Source: Opitutaceae bacterium
GTDB taxonomy: Bacteria > Verrucomicrobiota > Verrucomicrobiia > Opitutales > Opitutaceae
Length of the DNA: 48,697 nucleotides
NCBI GenBank assembly: GCA_002694885.1
Contig: NZNM01000082.1
Coordinates: 1 to 48,697, forward strand
Direction of reading: 5' to 3'
Positions 40,518-48,697 of the stretch are shown here, in pieces. The translations under genes were made by a program, and so were the position numbers. The notes beneath the pieces were generated by a model. It saw only the letters and a list, made by a program, of their open reading frames with translations, searched no databases and was not told where the DNA came from. Every line of letters starts with the position of its first letter. The first letter of the stretch is position 1.

Positions 40518-43500
40518 TTAAAACTCCGATGGCGCAAATGCTTCTACAAGCGCAATGCCACTTTCTCCAGCGGCTCCAGAAAGGATTACGGTATAAACAC
40601 GATTGGGTTCAAGATCCACGACCATTGCGGAGTTGGGACTTCCAATGACGTAACCCTGAGAGTTGACAGCTGCAGCCACCAGTAGAATCTCTGCGACATT
40701 GTTTTCCGGATCGGTCCAATCATCATTGTCGAATAGGTTTTCTTGATTCGGAAATGTTTCCACAACTCGAATATTCGGATTCGGAAGAGCGGTTGCTCCG
40801 GCTGGCAATCCTACGCCAGGCCCTTGCGCTCGGATAAGCAGTTTTTGTGGTTTATCGCCTATCACTGTGAAACCTGCGATCATAACGGAATCCTGATTAG
40901 AGCCAACGAAAGCGCGGGTGGAGATATTGAAGAGAGAAACGTTCGCGTCGGGATTGCTGTGTATTGATTCATCGTAAACCTCGACGAGCCCAATGCCCGT
41001 TCCATTGTCGACGCCCCTGACGATCGCCGTGTAGACGCCTTCGGTGAGACTGGCTCGCATCGCAGCGTCGTTGGAGTCGGTTGGTAGATCGAACGCCCCG
41101 ACTAGAGTCATAGCGTCCGCTAGTTCAGAAAGGCCACCCCATTCGGTATTCGGATTTTGGGGGATGTCGACTGGATTGGATTGTGGTGGGTTTTGGGTGA
41201 AATCCGTTTTAAAGAGTTCAACGGTTGGGTTTTCGATAGCGCCGGAGATGTTGTTTGGAGCATCGGCTAGCGTTGGTCCAACAGCTCGAATCAGAACGTC
41301 GAGTGGATCGCTACCAAGGATTGTGAACCCGGCTATCATGACTGAATCGCCCGTCAACACTTCGGATCTCGTGGAGATATTGATCAATTGCGAGGATCCA
41401 GATGAGTCCACTGTAGTAGCGCCGTTAATGACGATTCTCAAACTCGCCACATCGCTGTTGTTTTGAGAATCCTCGATTGTGTATTGGAAAGTTTCTTCGA
41501 TGCTTTCGCCATCGTTAAGATTGGCGACGTCGGGATCGTCATTGTCGACCTGATATGCATAACTTCCGTCCGGAGCGATGACCAGGTAGCCGTGATATGT
41601 TTTGATGCGAGCGCCTACGTTGTCGGATTCGCCGTCTACTTGCGTTATGGTTAGCGTTTCTCCATCGGGGGCTCCATCATTGTCGAGCAAAGAGCCTTTT
41701 ACGTATCCGCCGCCTTCGGTGATGGCGTCTTCATCATCGCCCGCAGTTACAGCAACGCCGTTGATGGTTATGGTTAGCGTAGCGGAGTCAGAGCGGCTCG
41801 CTCCGTCTATCGCCCGATAGATAGTGCTATCTTCAAGGGTCTCTCCGGCGTCTAAGGCCAGAACGGCGGCGTTTTCGTTGTCCAACTCGTAGATATAGTT
41901 GCCATTGGCTGCAATGGTAAGTGTGCCAAATGTAGTTGAAATTTGAGTGCCGACATTGCCTGCATCATCGTTGACACGGTCAACCGTCAGCGTTTCGCCG
42001 GTCGGCTTTTCATCATTGGTCAAAACGGATCCATTGACTGACGCTTCGCCTTCGTTTATCGAGTTCGTGTCATCGTTTGCGGTGACAGACTCAGCAGCGG
42101 CTACGGCAGTGACAGATAGTACGTCTCCCCATTCCATTTCATAGAAGTTATGCAGCATGCCTTGGGCTTGGAGCGAGACATCGCCGAGGGCCGAAGCCGT
42201 GAAGGCGAACGAATCGGCTCCCGGGAAAAATGCTGAGGTAGTGATCCCGCTCATGCTCTCTACGCCTGTGAGCATAATGTCGTCGAAATACCAGCCTACA
42301 AATGAGTCGGATCCCGTAAAGGCAGAGCCGCCTGTGTTATCATACGCAAACTGAATGTGGATTGTTCTGCCTTCAAAGGCTGATAGATCGACTGTTTTAT
42401 CAAAAAACGAGTTTTCGTCAGTACTGCCGCTATCAGAGCCTTGCGGTGTTAGCCCCGCTTGGGAGAAAACGTTGAGCCAGGATACGCCATTGTCCAAGGA
42501 GATGTTAACCTTAGCGATTTGCGAATCGGTAGCTGCTCGAACCATGCTCTTAAACGTAAGTTGGCTATTTTCTCCTATGACATACGTGTCAGGGAACGTA
42601 ATCGATTGGTTTGTGCCTATTTCATCGGTTGCTAGATGGAAAGCATTGCCGCTAGGATTCGAAGCCGGTGGAGCTTCGAGTACTGTGTATTCACCGAATT
42701 GGCGAACGGTTACTCTGCTCTTGAATTGTGAATCTGATTCACCGTTGTCTGCATTTTCATTGAGGCCCCCTGGTGTTGTCATGAACGAACGAAATCGAAT
42801 CCCTGTAACGTTTTCGTTAGTTTGGAGAGTAGCGAAATCGGGCAGGTTGACATCGAAATTCGTGGGCGTTCCAACTTCGACCTGAGGTGGTCCCGCGACA
42901 GTTGTTACGGTAGTTTCTCCAGTGGTTGGGACCTCGGGATCGAATACGATAACATCGTATGTATAGCTCGTTTGCGGCGCGTTTTGAATCCCGTCGATGG
43001 TGACTTGGTAAGTGACGTCGCTGACGGGTTTTGGATGGGTGTGACTTTCGTTTGCGTTCAGGCCGTCGTAAACCCAAACAAGCGTGTTATCTCCTAGAGA
43101 GCCGGCGTTTGGATCGTCGGGATCGGGATCCAAGACTTCTAGGGCGACATTGATTGGAGATCCGTCTCGCGTCATGGTGACGGTCGCATTCTTGAAATTG
43201 GCGTCTTTGATTGAAAACGACCATCTGGGATAGACGTTGTGATAAGGGACGTAGCCTTCCTGTGGAAAGGCGACATAGGCGAAATCAGTAGTAGGATGAG
43301 CTCCAAAGTTCAGGTTGGAGAATATATGGATTGCGTTGGCTCGACGAACCTCGGTTGGATTTCCAGGGATATTCGCTTGAGTTTCAGCTGGTATTGCAGC
43401 TGCCGGCGTATCTCCGGTTCCCATTTCTTTCATCGGTGGAAAAAGTAGCCAGCGTCGATGTCCAACGGAGGTATTTCCGGATCCCTTGTCTTGCATGTAT

Positions 43501-44093
43501 TCGTTTACGGATCCAGGTCCATAGGATCCTATCGCCAAATTGGAATCTTGAGCTCCCTGAACACCCTCAGCTGAAAGATAGTTTTGAAATCCGGCAAGAT
43601 CGGGGAAGTGGCCTATATTGTTGTTCCCCCCCATTATCAGAGCCGTCAATTGGGCGATGCGGCTCAACTCTTCTTTAAACTCAACATCTCCTGGTACGCC
43701 GGCCATGGCTCGGTAGTAATTGATGCGCAGCAAAGTCGCTTCTTGAAATAGCGAGTTCGTTTCTCCAGCGAGAGGTGTGACCGTTTCTGTTGTTTGTGTA
43801 CCAGTCCCTGGAAAGGGGCTAAAAGAGCCCGTCCAATCGATGGTGGCGTACTCCGATGCCCAGTAGATGGCGTTAAAGAATGTTCGAACCTCTTCTCGAT
43901 TCGAGTTGTCGACCTCCAGATCCACTCCAAGATCGATATCCTCGGCTAAAACCTGGAAATCTGAGAGCGTCTCCAGTTTGATCTGCAAGTCTTCTCGGTC
44001 TTCAGGCAGCAGTATCGGCTGAGCGATCGAGAGCTCCAGCAACCCAAAGGTGAGAAGCAAAAAGAGAGTATGACGGGCGGACGACAGTTTCAT
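40518..44093 (-). CDS. Large secreted CAP-domain protein with VCBS repeats and tandem C-terminal module
   Basis: A 1191-residue secreted protein. A signal peptide (residues 1-25, ending SIAQP) is followed by a CAP/SCP-like domain (about 110-290): LLRINYYRAMAGVPG, H162 in NNIGHFPDL and H212 in SVGHRRWLLFPP, but the usual GEN glutamate is not seen, so catalysis is doubtful. A MAM/immune-inhibitor-type beta domain follows (DLSAFEGRTIHIQFAYDN, WYFDDIMLTG). Two VCBS/cadherin-like repeats cover about 669-884 (each with LTNDEKPTGETLT- or LDNDGAPDGETLT-like cores). The last 290 residues are two copies of the NISTR...GF...LIRA-GP module also found in the S8 protease. I start at ATG 44093, where the signal peptide begins; 44135 is in frame upstream. 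It probably acts at the cell surface or outside. Confidence 0.82.
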   Translation of the reverse strand: MKLSSARHTLFLLLTFGLLELSIAQPILLPEDREDLQIKLETLSDFQVLAEDIDLGVDLEVDNSNREEVRTFFNAIYWASEYATIDWTGSFSPFPGTGTQTTETVTPLAGETNSLFQEATLLRINYYRAMAGVPGDVEFKEELSRIAQLTALIMGGNNNIGHFPDLAGFQNYLSAEGVQGAQDSNLAIGSYGPGSVNEYMQDKGSGNTSVGHRRWLLFPPMKEMGTGDTPAAAIPAETQANIPGNPTEVRRANAIHIFSNLNFGAHPTTDFAYVAFPQEGYVPYHNVYPRWSFSIKDANFKNATVTMTRDGSPINVALEVLDPDPDDPNAGSLGDNTLVWVYDGLNANESHTHPKPVSDVTYQVTIDGIQNAPQTSYTYDVIVFDPEVPTTGETTVTTVAGPPQVEVGTPTNFDVNLPDFATLQTNENVTGIRFRSFMTTPGGLNENADNGESDSQFKSRVTVRQFGEYTVLEAPPASNPSGNAFHLATDEIGTNQSITFPDTYVIGENSQLTFKSMVRAATDSQIAKVNISLDNGVSWLNVFSQAGLTPQGSDSGSTDENSFFDKTVDLSAFEGRTIHIQFAYDNTGGSAFTGSDSFVGWYFDDIMLTGVESMSGITTSAFFPGADSFAFTASALGDVSLQAQGMLHNFYEMEWGDVLSVTAVAAAESVTANDDTNSINEGEASVNGSVLTNDEKPTGETLTVDRVNDDAGNVGTQISTTFGTLTIAANGNYIYELDNENAAVLALDAGETLEDSTIYRAIDGASRSDSATLTITINGVAVTAGDDEDAITEGGGYVKGSLLDNDGAPDGETLTITQVDGESDNVGARIKTYHGYLVIAPDGSYAYQVDNDDPDVANLNDGESIEETFQYTIEDSQNNSDVASLRIVINGATTVDSSGSSQLINISTRSEVLTGDSVMIAGFTILGSDPLDVLIRAVGPTLADAPNNISGAIENPTVELFKTDFTQNPPQSNPVDIPQNPNTEWGGLSELADAMTLVGAFDLPTDSNDAAMRASLTEGVYTAIVRGVDNGTGIGLVEVYDESIHSNPDANVSLFNISTRAFVGSNQDSVMIAGFTVIGDKPQKLLIRAQGPGVGLPAGATALPNPNIRVVETFPNQENLFDNDDWTDPENNVAEILLVAAAVNSQGYVIGSPNSAMVVDLEPNRVYTVILSGAAGESGIALVEAFAPSEF

Positions 44094-44335
44094 AAAGATA
44101 AGTTGGCTAAGATTAGCAGTGTCGAGGCGGGGCAATCCCTTCTTAGGATTCCCTGAAATCGAATGGATTCTCTAAATAAATGCAGTTCCAAAACGGCTCC
44201 TGTCCTAAATCGTCACATCCTTTTACGAATTAATCACTTTGTTGTCTGAATCGATTATTCGTGGAAGGAGAGCGCGTGCGCAGCTTGTTCAAGCGGGCCT
44301 CTTTCTAACAAGTGGCTTTAAGGATTCGTGGATAG

Positions 44336-44646: not shown

Positions 44647-46098
44647 TCAAAGCCTTGTCGGTTCAAACGGCGAGTCGGGGGCCGTTCCGAGAACCTGCGC
44701 TCTCAGCTTGGCTCTCAATGATCTTACGACCGATTCGTAGGCGGAATCGTTGGCCAGATTGGTAAACTCTCCTGGGTCTTGAGCATGGTCGTACAACTCG
44801 ATTCCCTGCTGTCCTTCGTTCCACTCCGTATAGCGCCAGCGATCCGTGCGAATGCTGGCTCCCATGACTGGCAGTCCATCACCAGGACGCAGTACTTGGG
44901 TGAAGGCTTCTCCGTGCCAGTTCCGCTTCGGGTCTTCGAGCAAAGCGACGATGCTTTTACCTTCGATCTCATCGGGCGTTTCGAGTTGGCAAAGTTCGGC
45001 GACCGTTGGGTAGAGATCGACGAACTCCACGATTTCCTGGCTGGCCGTCCCATTTCCTAGGGCTCCGGGAGCATAGAAGATCATGGGTGCCGAGGCGGAC
45101 TCTTCGAATAAACAGCGTTTTTGCCAAATTCCCTGATGCTCTCCAAGATGATAGCCATGGTCGCTCCAAAAGACGATTATGGTACGTTCCATCAGATCCA
45201 TGGACTCCAGAGCGTCTAGCAGGCGACCGACCTGGGCGTCGACGAAACTGACGCTGGCGTAGTAGGCTTGTTTGGCTTTGAGAACGTCCGCTTCGTCTAT
45301 GCCATAGTTGGGTATAGGGCAATTATGAGCAAAGGCGACTTTCGGGATGTCCTCGCGATCATCATCGGGAGCGTAAGGCATTTTGATCTTTTCCAGTGGA
45401 TACAGGTCCCAGTACTTCTTTGGAGCGACATAAGGCGTGTGTGGCCGAAAAAATCCAACGCCGAGAAAAAAGGGCCGATTACGATTCTCGTCCATCAGTC
45501 GAATGGCTTCAGTCGTGATCATTCCATCGGTTTGCTCTTCATCCGTTCCTTCTGCCGCGAGCCAGCTCAAGGCGGCGCTGATAGGGCGATGAGGCTCGAG
45601 ATTGGTGATGAGGCGCTCTTCCTCAACGTCGCGCCCCTTTGGATTCACGACCTCATCCCAGGACTGAGGATCGTCCAAGCCATTGGTTCCGATTTGGCGC
45701 GGGACGCCGTAGTGATAGAGTTTGCCCACGCGCATCGATTTGTATCCGTTTTTTCGAAACAATTGAGGCAATGTGACCACATCTGGTTTCTCGTCGCGAA
45801 AGTGGCGGGACAAGTCGTAGACTTTCAATGTATCGGGCCTCAGGCCGGTGAGCAAGGAGGCTCGGGTAGGGTTGCAAAGCGGAATTTGGCAGTAGGCGTT
45901 GTCTAACCGTACGCCCATGTCCGAGAGCCGATCGAGGTTCGGAGTGACGGCTATCGGGTCGCCATAACACGCGATTGCTTGAGTGAGATCGTCGGAAGCG
46001 ATGAACAATACGTTGAGGGGCTTTGAGGGCTGCCCAATTAGGTTAGCGAAGCCAAAAACTAGGCTTGAGAGTAGGGTTGAGAATTTGATTGAGGTCAT
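44647..46098 (-). CDS. Secreted sulfatase, iduronate-2-sulfatase type
   Basis: A 483-residue sulfatase of the alkaline-phosphatase superfamily, exported by a signal peptide (residues 1-23, ending near NLIGQPS). The formylglycine site is C75 in [12 protein letters not shown] (C-x-P-x-R). Metal-binding residues are in FIASDDLT (SDDL) and [31 protein letters not shown] and [11 protein letters not shown] are typical of the iduronate-2-sulfatase-like subfamily (S1_7), which removes sulfate from polysaccharides. The Cys must be activated by an enzyme encoded elsewhere (FGE or anSME). I start at ATG 46098; an upstream ATG at 46140 would place 14 polar residues before the signal peptide. REP-like repeats lie on both sides. 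Confidence 0.9.
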
Positions 46099-46247
46099 TA
46101 GGGAGTATGAAAGGTATTCAATGTGGTTGCATTGGGTCAATCATTGGCTTGGGGAAAGGAATTTTCAGGTGTCGGTAAAACGGCGTATCAGGAACTGTAG
46201 ACGCTGGTCGCCCCAAAAAACGTGCATGAATCGTATGAATTTCCTAT

Positions 46248-46441: not shown

Positions 46442-47761
46442 ATGCTCAAAACGTTTATCCACACTATCGTAATTATCCTGATTGCGCTATCCGCTCTCCT
46501 GTACATTGATTCGGGATCATCCGATGGCGACGCGTTTCCAGCGCGCCCGGTGAGGGTGATTGTTCCGTTTAATCCAGGTGGAGGGACGGACACCTATGTG
46601 AGGATTTTGCAAAAAGCGATCAAGGATAACGATCTCATGCCTCAGCCCTTGGTCATTCTGAACAAGCCAGGAGGTGGAGCTACGATAGGGAGTACCTATG
46701 TAAAGGATGCCAAGAATGATGGATACACGCTGCTTTGCTTACACGAGGCGTTGCTAACATCGAAAGTAACGGGCCAGTCGCCTCATGGACCGGAAGCATT
46801 CGAGTCGGTAGCGGCCACGGGAGAGAATGATATGCTGATCATTGTTAATGATTCGGCCCCATTCCGGACGATGAAAGCGTTTATGGACGAAGCGAAGTCG
46901 CGACCGGAGACGCTAAAGTTTGGCGTTAACTTCGGTACGCCAACCCACTTCGCAGGTATTCAATTAGAAAATACCGCTCCCGGAGCTCGGTTTCGCTTGG
47001 TGTCAGCAGGGGGAGGCGCCAATCGGCTAGCCGCTTTAATGGGCGGGCATCTCGATGCAGCGATTTTTTCGGTGGGTGAATTCGTGCGTTTCCGCTCCAA
47101 TGGCTTGAGAGCCTTGGCATATCTTAGGGAAGAGCGGCACGAGGAGTTTCCGGACATCCCGACGGCGGAAGAATTGGGCTATCCAGTCAACAGCAGCAAT
47201 TTGCAATACTGGTGGTATCCAAAAGGCACGGATTCCGAGATAGTCGATTACATGGCGAATATTCTCAAAAAAGCCATGGAAACCGAATATGCGGTGAACC
47301 GGTCCAATGAATTGCAGATCGAGCCGCGAACGATTGTCGGGCAGGAGCTGCAGGATCGAATCGATCGCAAAATGCGCCTTTTCGGCGAGATGAAAACTGC
47401 GGAACGATTGGATTTGCCTGATGTGGTGTTTTGGGCGTTCGTATTCGTAGCGGTATTTGGGGTGACCGTGTTCATAAAGAGGAAATCGAATGAAACAGAA
47501 GCTGCAATCGCGAGCGAATCACTGACATTGCGATTCGATAAGGCATTTGGAGTTGTCGGCATGTGCGTGGTTTACGTTTCTCTAATGGGCTTCGGCATCG
47601 CTACTTTCGTATGGGCGACATCGCTCTTCCTAGTGGTGAGCGGGTTGTATCTTACGAACTTTGACAAGAGGCGATTGCTTCCAGTGTTTGAAACCGCCTT
47701 CCTGTTGCCCTTCGGGCTTCACTTTGTCTTCACTAAGCTATTTGCCATCCAACTTCCCTAG
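46442..47761 (+). CDS. Fused TctC-TctB protein: solute receptor plus small membrane subunit
   Basis: A 439-residue fusion of two tripartite tricarboxylate transporter subunits. Residues 7-22 are a signal or signal-anchor. Residues 35-320 are a TctC/Bug-type receptor (PVRVIVPFNPGGGTDTYVR, NKPGGGATIGSTYVKDA, FGTPTHFAGIQLE). Residues 325-439 are a TctB-like unit with about four hydrophobic helices (328-346, 367-383, 384-404, 412-434) and a basic cytoplasmic loop (KRKSNE). In the classical system TctC is a free periplasmic protein and TctB a separate membrane protein. Here the receptor would be tethered to the membrane. tctA follows 6 bases later, supporting the assignment. The start is ATG 46442. 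The ligand is probably a carboxylate, otherwise unknown. Confidence 0.85.
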   Translation: MLKTFIHTIVIILIALSALLYIDSGSSDGDAFPARPVRVIVPFNPGGGTDTYVRILQKAIKDNDLMPQPLVILNKPGGGATIGSTYVKDAKNDGYTLLCLHEALLTSKVTGQSPHGPEAFESVAATGENDMLIIVNDSAPFRTMKAFMDEAKSRPETLKFGVNFGTPTHFAGIQLENTAPGARFRLVSAGGGANRLAALMGGHLDAAIFSVGEFVRFRSNGLRALAYLREERHEEFPDIPTAEELGYPVNSSNLQYWWYPKGTDSEIVDYMANILKKAMETEYAVNRSNELQIEPRTIVGQELQDRIDRKMRLFGEMKTAERLDLPDVVFWAFVFVAVFGVTVFIKRKSNETEAAIASESLTLRFDKAFGVVGMCVVYVSLMGFGIATFVWATSLFLVVSGLYLTNFDKRRLLPVFETAFLLPFGLHFVFTKLFAIQLP

Positions 47762-47767
47762 GCATCC

Positions 47768-48697
47768 ATGGAGTCGATACAAGCAGCCGCCAGCTACATT
47801 CTTAGCGTTCAGGGAATCGCCTTGATCGTATTGGGGACTGTGCTGGGCATCACTATGGGCGCTATTCCCGGTCTGACGGGCGCCATGCTAATCGCTCTTA
47901 CGCTTCCTCTGACTTTCAGCATGGACCCCATCTTCGCCTTCATCTTGTTGATAAGCATGTATGTGGGAGCCGTCAGTGGTGGTTTGATTACAGCCACGCT
48001 TTTGAGGATGCCTGGTACGCCGGCTTCGATCATGACGACGATGGACGGGTTTCCCATGGCTCGGTCTGGCAAACCGGGTAGGGCTCTCGGATTGGGGATA
48101 ACGGCATCCTTCGTGGGTGGGATGATTTCCTGGGTATTCTTGATAACCCTCTCGGCCCCCATTGCCCGCTATTCAACGAAATTGGGGCCGTTCGACTTTT
48201 TCTCGCTCGTGCTTCTGGCCCTCGTCTTGATCGCCTCAATTGGCGGAAAATCGTTGAGTCGATCCTTTTTTTCCGCGTCGCTAGGTGTTTTGGCTTCGTT
48301 GCCGGGTATCGATAAAGCGACGGGGAATCTGCGTTTGACCTTTGGCTACGAGGAACTCAACGGCGGATTGAAACTATTGCCAGTGCTTATTGGCATGTTC
48401 GCCATCAGTCAAATTATATCGGACATCAGCCGTATCAACGAGAAGATTACGGTGATACCTGTAAATCGGGCTCGAGAGATCTTCTTCAAACTGCGGGATT
48501 GGAAGAGGCAAGCAGTTAACCTGATTCGATCGTCGCTCATAGGGACTTGGATTGGCATCCTGCCTGGAGTCGGAGCGAATATCGGGTCGGTGACGGCTTA
48601 TAGCGCAGCCCGTTCCGTCGCGTCTCCTGAGGAGAGGGAGAAATTCGGCAAGGGATCTGAAGTAGCCATCGTCGCTTCGGAGTCGGCTAACAATGCC
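47768..48697 (+). CDS. Tripartite tricarboxylate transporter TctA (partial, 3' end outside window)
   Basis: The first 310 codons of the large membrane subunit, open to the right edge; the family has about 500 residues. The start is ATG 47768, 6 bases after the TctC-TctB stop. The two symmetry-related TctA hallmarks are visible: GTVLGITMGAIPGLTGAM with a following LTLPLTF near the N-terminus, and TWIGILPGVGANIGSVTAY near residue 265. RMPGTPASIMTTMDGFPMA is also diagnostic. About seven hydrophobic helices are covered. It forms the sodium- or proton-coupled carboxylate channel that receives ligand from the fused TctC-TctB partner. Confidence 0.93.
   Translation, partial: MESIQAAASYILSVQGIALIVLGTVLGITMGAIPGLTGAMLIALTLPLTFSMDPIFAFILLISMYVGAVSGGLITATLLRMPGTPASIMTTMDGFPMARSGKPGRALGLGITASFVGGMISWVFLITLSAPIARYSTKLGPFDFFSLVLLALVLIASIGGKSLSRSFFSASLGVLASLPGIDKATGNLRLTFGYEELNGGLKLLPVLIGMFAISQIISDISRINEKITVIPVNRAREIFFKLRDWKRQAVNLIRSSLIGTWIGILPGVGANIGSVTAYSAARSVASPEEREKFGKGSEVAIVASESANNA

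Follow-up and report, generated by a model that had tools for sequence, protein, structure and literature searches.

Within the window, by which we mean the whole stretch of DNA analyzed (48,697 nucleotides, the entire contig C88 of a 165-contig, MAG-like genome), an open frame on the plus strand, tctCB, runs from ATG to TAG (positions 46442–47761, stop codon counted) and encodes a protein of 439 residues in which a TctC receptor is followed by TctB helices 2–5. The protein starts with a hydrophobic helix, residues 2–23 in the AF2 model (46445–46510, plus strand), which is possibly an uncleaved signal anchor. This is followed by a TctC/Bug receptor domain of about residues 31–312 (46532–47377, plus strand), which would lie in the periplasm, and by the TctB helices at residues 328–353, 365–383, 389–404 and 409–433 (47423–47740, plus strand). 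After a gap of 6 bases from the tctCB stop codon, tctA begins on the same strand and encodes the first 310 residues of the translocation subunit (47768–48697; PF01970, E = 1.9e-90) before it is cut by the contig end. The remainder of tctA is probably located on contig C54. We infer this join from a 16-base exact overlap between C88 and C54 and from the complementary TctA profile spans of the two fragments (2–294 and 290–423, respectively). On the minus strand, divergent from tctCB, lies a sulfatase gene (44647–46140).

Pfam matched the fused protein to TctC (PF03401) at residues 64–306 (E = 5.9e-26) and to TctB (PF07331) at residues 330–439, the latter over profile positions 34–137 only. Taken alone, the TctB score of the protein (28.4 bits) is marginal, lying just below the cut-off of 29.1, but the fused frame exceeded this cut-off in the six-frame genome search (32.7 bits), and a canonical TctB profile built from 51 standalone proteins (155 positions) matched the fusion (row L003) at 3e-10 from profile position 44 to 149. 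For the receptor, the best Foldseek match was Bug27 (2qpq, E = 5e-22), in a list headed by Bug/TctC crystal structures (Bug27, TphC, MatC, BugD and similar), and the best phmmer match was 25HK (E = 8e-31). The AF2 model, computed from an alignment of 20 fusions, comprised the N-terminal helix, a receptor fold and four C-terminal helices with a mean pLDDT of 79, with values below 50 at residues 320–326 and 352–363. When Pfam matches with E values up to 1 were considered, the fusion matched TctC and TctB only, and its partner matched TctA and one weak family below its cut-off; the TRAP families DctP/TAXI, DctQ and DctM and ATPase domains were matched in neither protein. NCBIfam provided no usable name for the fused protein. 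A receptor made as a separate soluble protein is a usual, not strictly defining, trait of tripartite tricarboxylate transporters (TTTs); here, receptor and TctB share one frame. These results agree with the initial annotation, which had described a two-gene TTT operon whose first gene fuses TctC to TctB, four TctB-type helices lying behind the receptor and tctA starting 6 bases downstream.

We searched 57 related genomes with the fused protein and found full-length, stop-free fused frames in 12, namely all genomes of the window's genus (11/11, with G007 and G010 being single-contig assemblies) and one genome from another family of the order (G043); the other 45 of the 46 genomes searched outside the genus yielded no full-length fused frame. 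These window-type fusions are 53–81% identical to the window's protein and thus are not copies of it. Starts and N-termini were inspected at 21 loci. Two findings that the initial annotation had named as fatal to its claim were looked for, and neither appeared: independent assemblies contained no frameshift or missed stop, and none of the close relatives read had tctC and tctB as two genes at this locus. Several genomes of the genus also carry a second fused paralogue, preceded by tctA and sharing 32–37% identity with the window's protein, as well as conventional unfused tctC, tctB and tctA genes at other sites. An assembly or sequencing artefact, in which a lost stop codon or a frameshift joined two genes, might be suspected in a MAG-like contig that ends inside tctA, but the recurrence of the stop-free frame in diverged genomes, two of them single-contig, and the entry into TctB at the same region in 47 distinct fused ORFs make it negligible. 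We accordingly regard the TctC–TctB fusion as confirmed: it is genuine, conserved and recurrent.

The distribution of the fusion was surveyed by a one-genome-per-species scan with the fusion alignment, from which the best 80 of at least 566 confirmed stretches were taken. Local profiles and a six-frame reading of all collected loci yielded 174 distinct receptor frames, 47 of which were fused to TctB. Among the best matches listed, the fusion occurred not only in Verrucomicrobiota, where the initial annotation had suggested searching, but also in Planctomycetota, Lentisphaerota and Bacillota, the last of which was also found by a search of the Epulopiscium order; one named cultured strain, Rubritalea profundi (L062), was among these matches. 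At least 4 of 288 evenly drawn genomes of the window's phylum contained a fusion (G000, G010, G256 and G279). The fusions of G256 are L178 and L179, and the match coordinates in G279 are those of G333, the genome of L047. In the Epulopiscium order, long TctB frames above the cut-off were present in 6/196 genomes, and all seven such frames were TctC–TctB fusions (L100 and L172–L177). Two further candidates were rejected: the tail of a 440-residue frame (L072) runs into a sulfatase-like fragment, and at a 471-residue PF07331 frame (G259) the TctC and TctB regions are read in two different frames that overlap.

A second arrangement, class C, consists of a receptor with a single C-terminal helix, followed by tctA (8 rows, support 100/100 in tree 2). 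At all class C loci checked (8/8), the receptor stop codon overlaps the tctA start as ATGA, so that the remainder of TctB is truly absent there. A TctB search of four class C genomes gave only matches below the cut-off in G342 and G344, a fusion elsewhere in G343 (L141) and no match in G345. In tree 2, class C was placed among the PVC fusions, near two Planctomycetota ones, with weak support (93/83). It is likely that class C was derived from a fusion by loss of TctB helices 3–5; the reverse order, in which class C preceded the full fusion, was not rejected (p-AU = 0.088).

Tree 1 comprised 118 of the 174 receptor rows and tree 2 comprised 75 rows, after long branches, near-copies and truncated rows had been dropped together with some of the standalone rows. 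The starred tree branches force at least three changes between the fused and separate states. We compared alternative groupings by p-AU values, which are weakened because the tested groups were named after a quick tree had been seen. A single clade of all fused and anchored rows was rejected (p-AU = 0.0006), as was the joining of the Planctomycetota pair L132/L133 to the PVC rows of the main clade (p-AU = 5e-6). A clade of PVC and Bacillota fusions was borderline (p-AU = 0.049), and neither PVC fusions together with class C (p-AU = 0.285) nor PVC fusions without class C (p-AU = 0.088) were rejected as one clade. With both the single clade and the joining of L132/L133 rejected, these trees indicate that the fusion arose more than once, with at least two origins; three origins of fusion or anchoring are probable, the split between Bacillota and PVC being borderline.

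The position of the junction within TctB was constant. In the canonical TctB consensus, helix 1 was located by eye at about positions 8–25. All 47 distinct fusions matched this profile from positions 26–50 to positions 145–154, and helix 1 was unmatched in each of them (47/47). Similarly, Pfam TctB matches began mostly at positions 2–7 in standalone proteins and at positions 24–34 in fusions. A model of canonical TctB displayed five helices at low confidence (pLDDT 53) and was taken for the helix count only. The N-terminus of TctB is predicted to be cytosolic, according to the available part of a review (PMC5812351); if so, helix 1 runs from inside to outside. A receptor with its C-terminus in the periplasm would consequently have to enter TctB at a helix running from outside to inside, with helix 1 missing. 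The repeated absence of helix 1 would thus be a requirement of a working tethered protein. Basic residues are found behind helices 2 and 4, where they would be cytosolic, as the positive-inside rule wants; however, the loop at residues 349–366 after helix 2 is net acidic (1 K/R, 4 D/E), which counts against the proposed topology.

We further analyzed the N-terminal helix. An [AVSTG]xA or lipobox motif was present in 99/110 standalone TctC proteins, 21/46 fusions and 6/8 class C proteins, by a loose search with unrestricted position that misses lipoboxes recognizable by eye in L071 and L133. Neither motif was found in the window's protein, and one loose [AVSTG]xA was found in each of the same-clade members L011, L013, L014, L015, L017 and L020. 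Other fusions, such as L048, L049, L051, L070, L100 and L177, have lipoprotein-type N-termini. The variation suggests that several anchoring solutions exist, and retention of the first helix is not general, since N-termini of the lipobox or SPI type occur in several fusions; within the clade of the window, the N-terminal helix is mostly free of obvious cleavage motifs and may stay in the membrane. The idea that the receptor was inserted between TctB helices 1 and 2, the N-terminal helix being the true helix 1, failed a homology test: the median helix-1 profile score was 4.25 bits for fusion N-termini and 3.40 bits for TctC signal peptides (P = 0.11), compared with 21.4 bits for true TctB proteins, which were the training set of that profile. 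Because the helix scores no better than ordinary signal peptides, it could still be a cleaved signal; it is also possible that it acts as a functional stand-in for TctB helix 1.

Taken together, these features probably describe a two-gene TTT importer in which the receptor is covalently tethered to the membrane, with the topology, the retention of the first helix, the assembly with TctA and the direction of import as we infer them here. The signal sequence would probably remain in place as a helix whose N-terminus is cytosolic, and the receptor would fold on the periplasmic side and lead at its C-terminal end directly into TctB helix 2. TctA, as the subunit that would carry out ion-coupled transport, would provide the docking site for the four TctB helices, and ligand would be passed from the receptor to its own TctA rather than exchanged from a soluble pool. 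By analogy with receptor-fused ABC importers, it is plausible that the resulting high local concentration of receptor changes the transport kinetics, as had been proposed initially. A competing possibility is that one chain is made and then cut, N-terminally by signal peptidase and in the linker near residues 316–327 by a protease, which would leave the receptor to diffuse freely. The low pLDDT of linker residues 320–326 and the SPI-like or lipobox N-termini of some other fusions could be read in this way. However, the linker is short, P326 is invariant and L325 nearly so among 20 aligned fusions, and class C proteins still end in a hydrophobic helix that no further TctB sequence follows; we therefore consider such processing improbable. 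The lone C-terminal helix kept in class C suggests, under the tethered-receptor reading, that the anchor is itself useful.

The comparison of class C with the fusions that keep helices 2–5 makes the role of TctB testable, whether as a receptor dock, as a TctA chaperone or as a dispensable part. The function of TctB is given as not known in the available part of a 2018 review (PMC5812351), and the accessible text of a 2026 paper (PMC13390454) states that no TctB has been characterized so far. Compared with the TTT family TctABC (TC 2.A.80), the window's system has the TctA, TctB and TctC domains and the gene order C–B–A in common, but differs by joining receptor and TctB in a single chain and by lacking TctB helix 1. 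Fusions between other components are already in print: a TctA–TctB fusion in Paraburkholderia caribensis is described in the 2018 review, the available text of which does not mention a TctC–TctB fusion, and TRAP P–Q fusions, which join the binding protein to the small membrane subunit as in the window, are termed ‘rarer still’ than Q–M fusions in the part of PMC8276074 at hand, where they are written Q–P. According to the same portion of the 2018 review, TRAP Q–M fusions fix the topology with an extra helix, whereas the fusion described here would keep it by omitting one. In the ABC importer GlnPQ, extracytoplasmic substrate-binding domains are likewise linked to the membrane domain (available text of PMC8025302); unlike GlnPQ, the window's system has no matched ATPase domain, and its TctA partner belongs to a secondary-transporter family. 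We recognized neither a TctC–TctB fusion nor a TTT–sulfatase operon in the open-access literature searched. What the analysis adds to the initial annotation is that TctB helix 1 is consistently missing from the fusions, that an anchored class lacks TctB and that many loci are linked to sulfatases.

The sulfatase that neighbors tctCB in the window (44647–46140) matched PF00884 (E = 2.3e-45) and SGSH_C, has a signal-like N-terminus and contains an FGly-type CNPTR motif, which fits C-x-[PA]-x-R; it can thus be classed as a type I sulfatase. A sulfatase occupies the same place in the same orientation at L040, L041, L042 and L191. We compared loci for a sulfatase gene within 500 bp and found one at 29/49 fused or anchored loci and 0/21 ordinary loci (Fisher's exact test, P = 7e-7); a hand count of same-strand sulfatases within 60 bp gave 21/49 and 0/21 (P = 1e-4), and the PVC loci alone gave 23/42 and 0/7 (P = 0.008), although all of these P values are too small because the loci are related. 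Within 500 bp, the positive loci were 18/34 PVC fusions, 5/8 class C loci and 6/7 Bacillota fusions. The controls were same-genus tctCBA operons (0/7) and other standalone tctC genes with tctA (0/1 and 0/13), most controls from outside the genus coming from genomes that are possibly poor in sulfatases. Because of too little flanking sequence or because no tctC–tctA cluster was found, 1/35 PVC fusions, both members of the Planctomycetota pair (2/2) and 1/9 class C loci were left out, only 1/28 and 13/46 of the other standalone loci were usable, and near-copies of listed loci (for example, L200, L197 and L198) were excluded.

We then read the N-termini of 36 neighboring sulfatases. Twenty-one were signal-less, defined by reading as a start codon 3–8 residues before the first conserved strand with no signal-like stretch, although longer starts are possible in some; 14 were signal-like and one (L175) was cut. 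The signal-less proteins, which we took as cytosolic for that reason, were those of L047, L048, L049, L051, L053, L054, L061 and L179, five from class C and eight from Bacillota, and a signal-less sulfatase was present at 18 of the 29 loci with an adjacent sulfatase. Signal-like N-termini were found in the window and its close clade, in which the directly adjacent sulfatases look secreted, and at L046, L060 and L178. At L046, a secreted and then a signal-less sulfatase come after tctA. The same order is seen on C54, where a secreted sulfatase and then a signal-less one lie downstream of the tctA end; the signal-less protein is the top hit within that genome for its L046 counterpart (66% identity). 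Given the probable C88–C54 join, the window's operon thus probably continues as tctA, secreted sulfatase and signal-less sulfatase.

No protein reached an NCBIfam family cut-off, the sulfatases matching only below the cut-offs without a family name, so that NCBIfam does not name the substrate. Membership in the TTT family would imply a carboxylate. Among solved receptors, TTT-C of Vibrio sp. C42 (PDB 25HK) is the nearest in sequence; it belongs to a three-gene system, in contrast to the two genes here, and is reported in the available text to bind unsaturated alginate oligosaccharides (PMC13390454). Of its 11 ligand residues given there, five are the same in the window's receptor (F19, G24, T25, D26 and G183, corresponding to F43, G48, T49, D50 and G212) and six differ (G20, P104, S164, E165, T225 and R227, corresponding to N44, D130, A193, N194, N253 and Q255). 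For part of the group, the genomic context suggests an anion that is sulfated or of the uronate type. Alginate is not sulfated. We tentatively propose that in some lineages the substrate may be an organic anion that carries sulfate, for example a sugar acid or a uronate oligosaccharide in sulfated form, which would be desulfated by the neighboring, often cytosolic sulfatase; this proposal falls well below even confidence. A broader and rather doubtful proposal combines two parts, namely that receptor-tethered TTTs include repeatedly evolved organosulfate importers that would bring in such sulfated substrates intact and feed them to a co-encoded cytosolic sulfatase, and that the class C anchor replaces TctB, with TctB serving as a receptor dock. 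If the link to sulfatases holds, these systems would also offer PVC bacteria a way to move sulfated breakdown products across the inner membrane; a study of Verrucomicrobiota growing on sulfated methyl pentoses left the transporters, the outer-membrane ones in particular, open in the part of its text available (PMC8857213).

Alternatively, the sulfatase neighbors could mostly reflect the background of sulfatase-rich genomes, and the transporters could be ordinary TTTs for sugar acids or carboxylates, an explanation that we consider only slightly short of an even chance. PVC genomes contain many sulfatase candidates: five genomes of the genus had 186–261 first-look candidates each (scores saturate near 81). 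Twenty of the 49 loci lacked an adjacent sulfatase, including all seven loci of one sister subclade (L043, L044, L045 and L192–L195), in which the genes after tctA at L043 and L193 are instead an enolase-superfamily member and an RraA-like one, and including the fusion of Rubritalea profundi (L062); Amidohydrolase_2 genes are present at L047, L050, L068 and L069. The accessible text of PMC13390454 describes TTTs that transport citrate, glucarate and similar compounds. In addition, when five genomes were searched for the signal-less sulfatase, the best match was located elsewhere than at the window-type fusion in four (G005, G007, G010 and G043); the G005 match is about 3 kb from the reversed-order paralogue. 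On the other hand, no sulfatase adjoins any of the seven standalone tctCBA operons of the same genus, and in Bacillota, where sulfatases are less numerous, the Epulopiscium genome G331 contains only 7 sulfatase matches, yet two sulfatase genes flank its fusion L100. Transport of a sulfated anion is also favored over such a background by the class C loci, at five of eight of which a sulfatase gene begins 0–20 bp after tctA.

Class C, the sister form of the fused receptors (L022/L064, L024, L050, L057, L058, L065, L067, L068 and L069), has TctC followed by a single C-terminal helix; the receptor gene and tctA share an ATGA overlap (8/8 checked), and no TctB was found at these loci. Class C is apparently a tripartite tricarboxylate transporter (TTT) functioning without TctB.

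In a second fused clade, gene order is inverted, with tctA preceding the fusion gene (L028-L032, L052, L053, L055, L056 and L059-L063), and this arrangement is present in cultured Rubritalea profundi (L062). Bacillota also carry TctC-TctB fusions (L100, from Epulopiscium sp., and L172-L177), some with lipobox N-termini, and a sulfatase adjoins six of the seven. The C-terminal piece of an additional fusion copy in genome G006 (C469:4791-5336) contains a single in-frame TAG and is possibly a decaying copy.

Tethered TTTs are adjoined by a group of signal-less sulfatases whose N-terminus resembles MxxRPNILWYCTDQQRFDTIGAL; examples among its members are L057:6496-7896, L068:4637-6031, L054:7357-8757 and, in the genome of the window, C54:17201-18592. 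The sulfatase of the window adjoins a putative secreted protein of 1205 residues (40518-44135, reverse strand), one stretch of which is present in two similar copies and, by eye, looks like adhesion-type repeats.

Downstream of tctA, one subclade harbors an enolase-superfamily gene and an RraA-like gene (L043:8932-11153 and L193:3315-5533), and L044 and L195 show, by eye, starts similar to these genes. The top NCBIfam match of the L193 enolase-superfamily gene was L-talarate/galactarate dehydratase, under the cut-off. Amidohydrolase_2 genes lie close to the TTT at L047:3635-4531, L050:8555-9484 (L-fucono-1,5-lactonase match, likewise under cut-off), L068:6053-6985 and L069:10333-11265.
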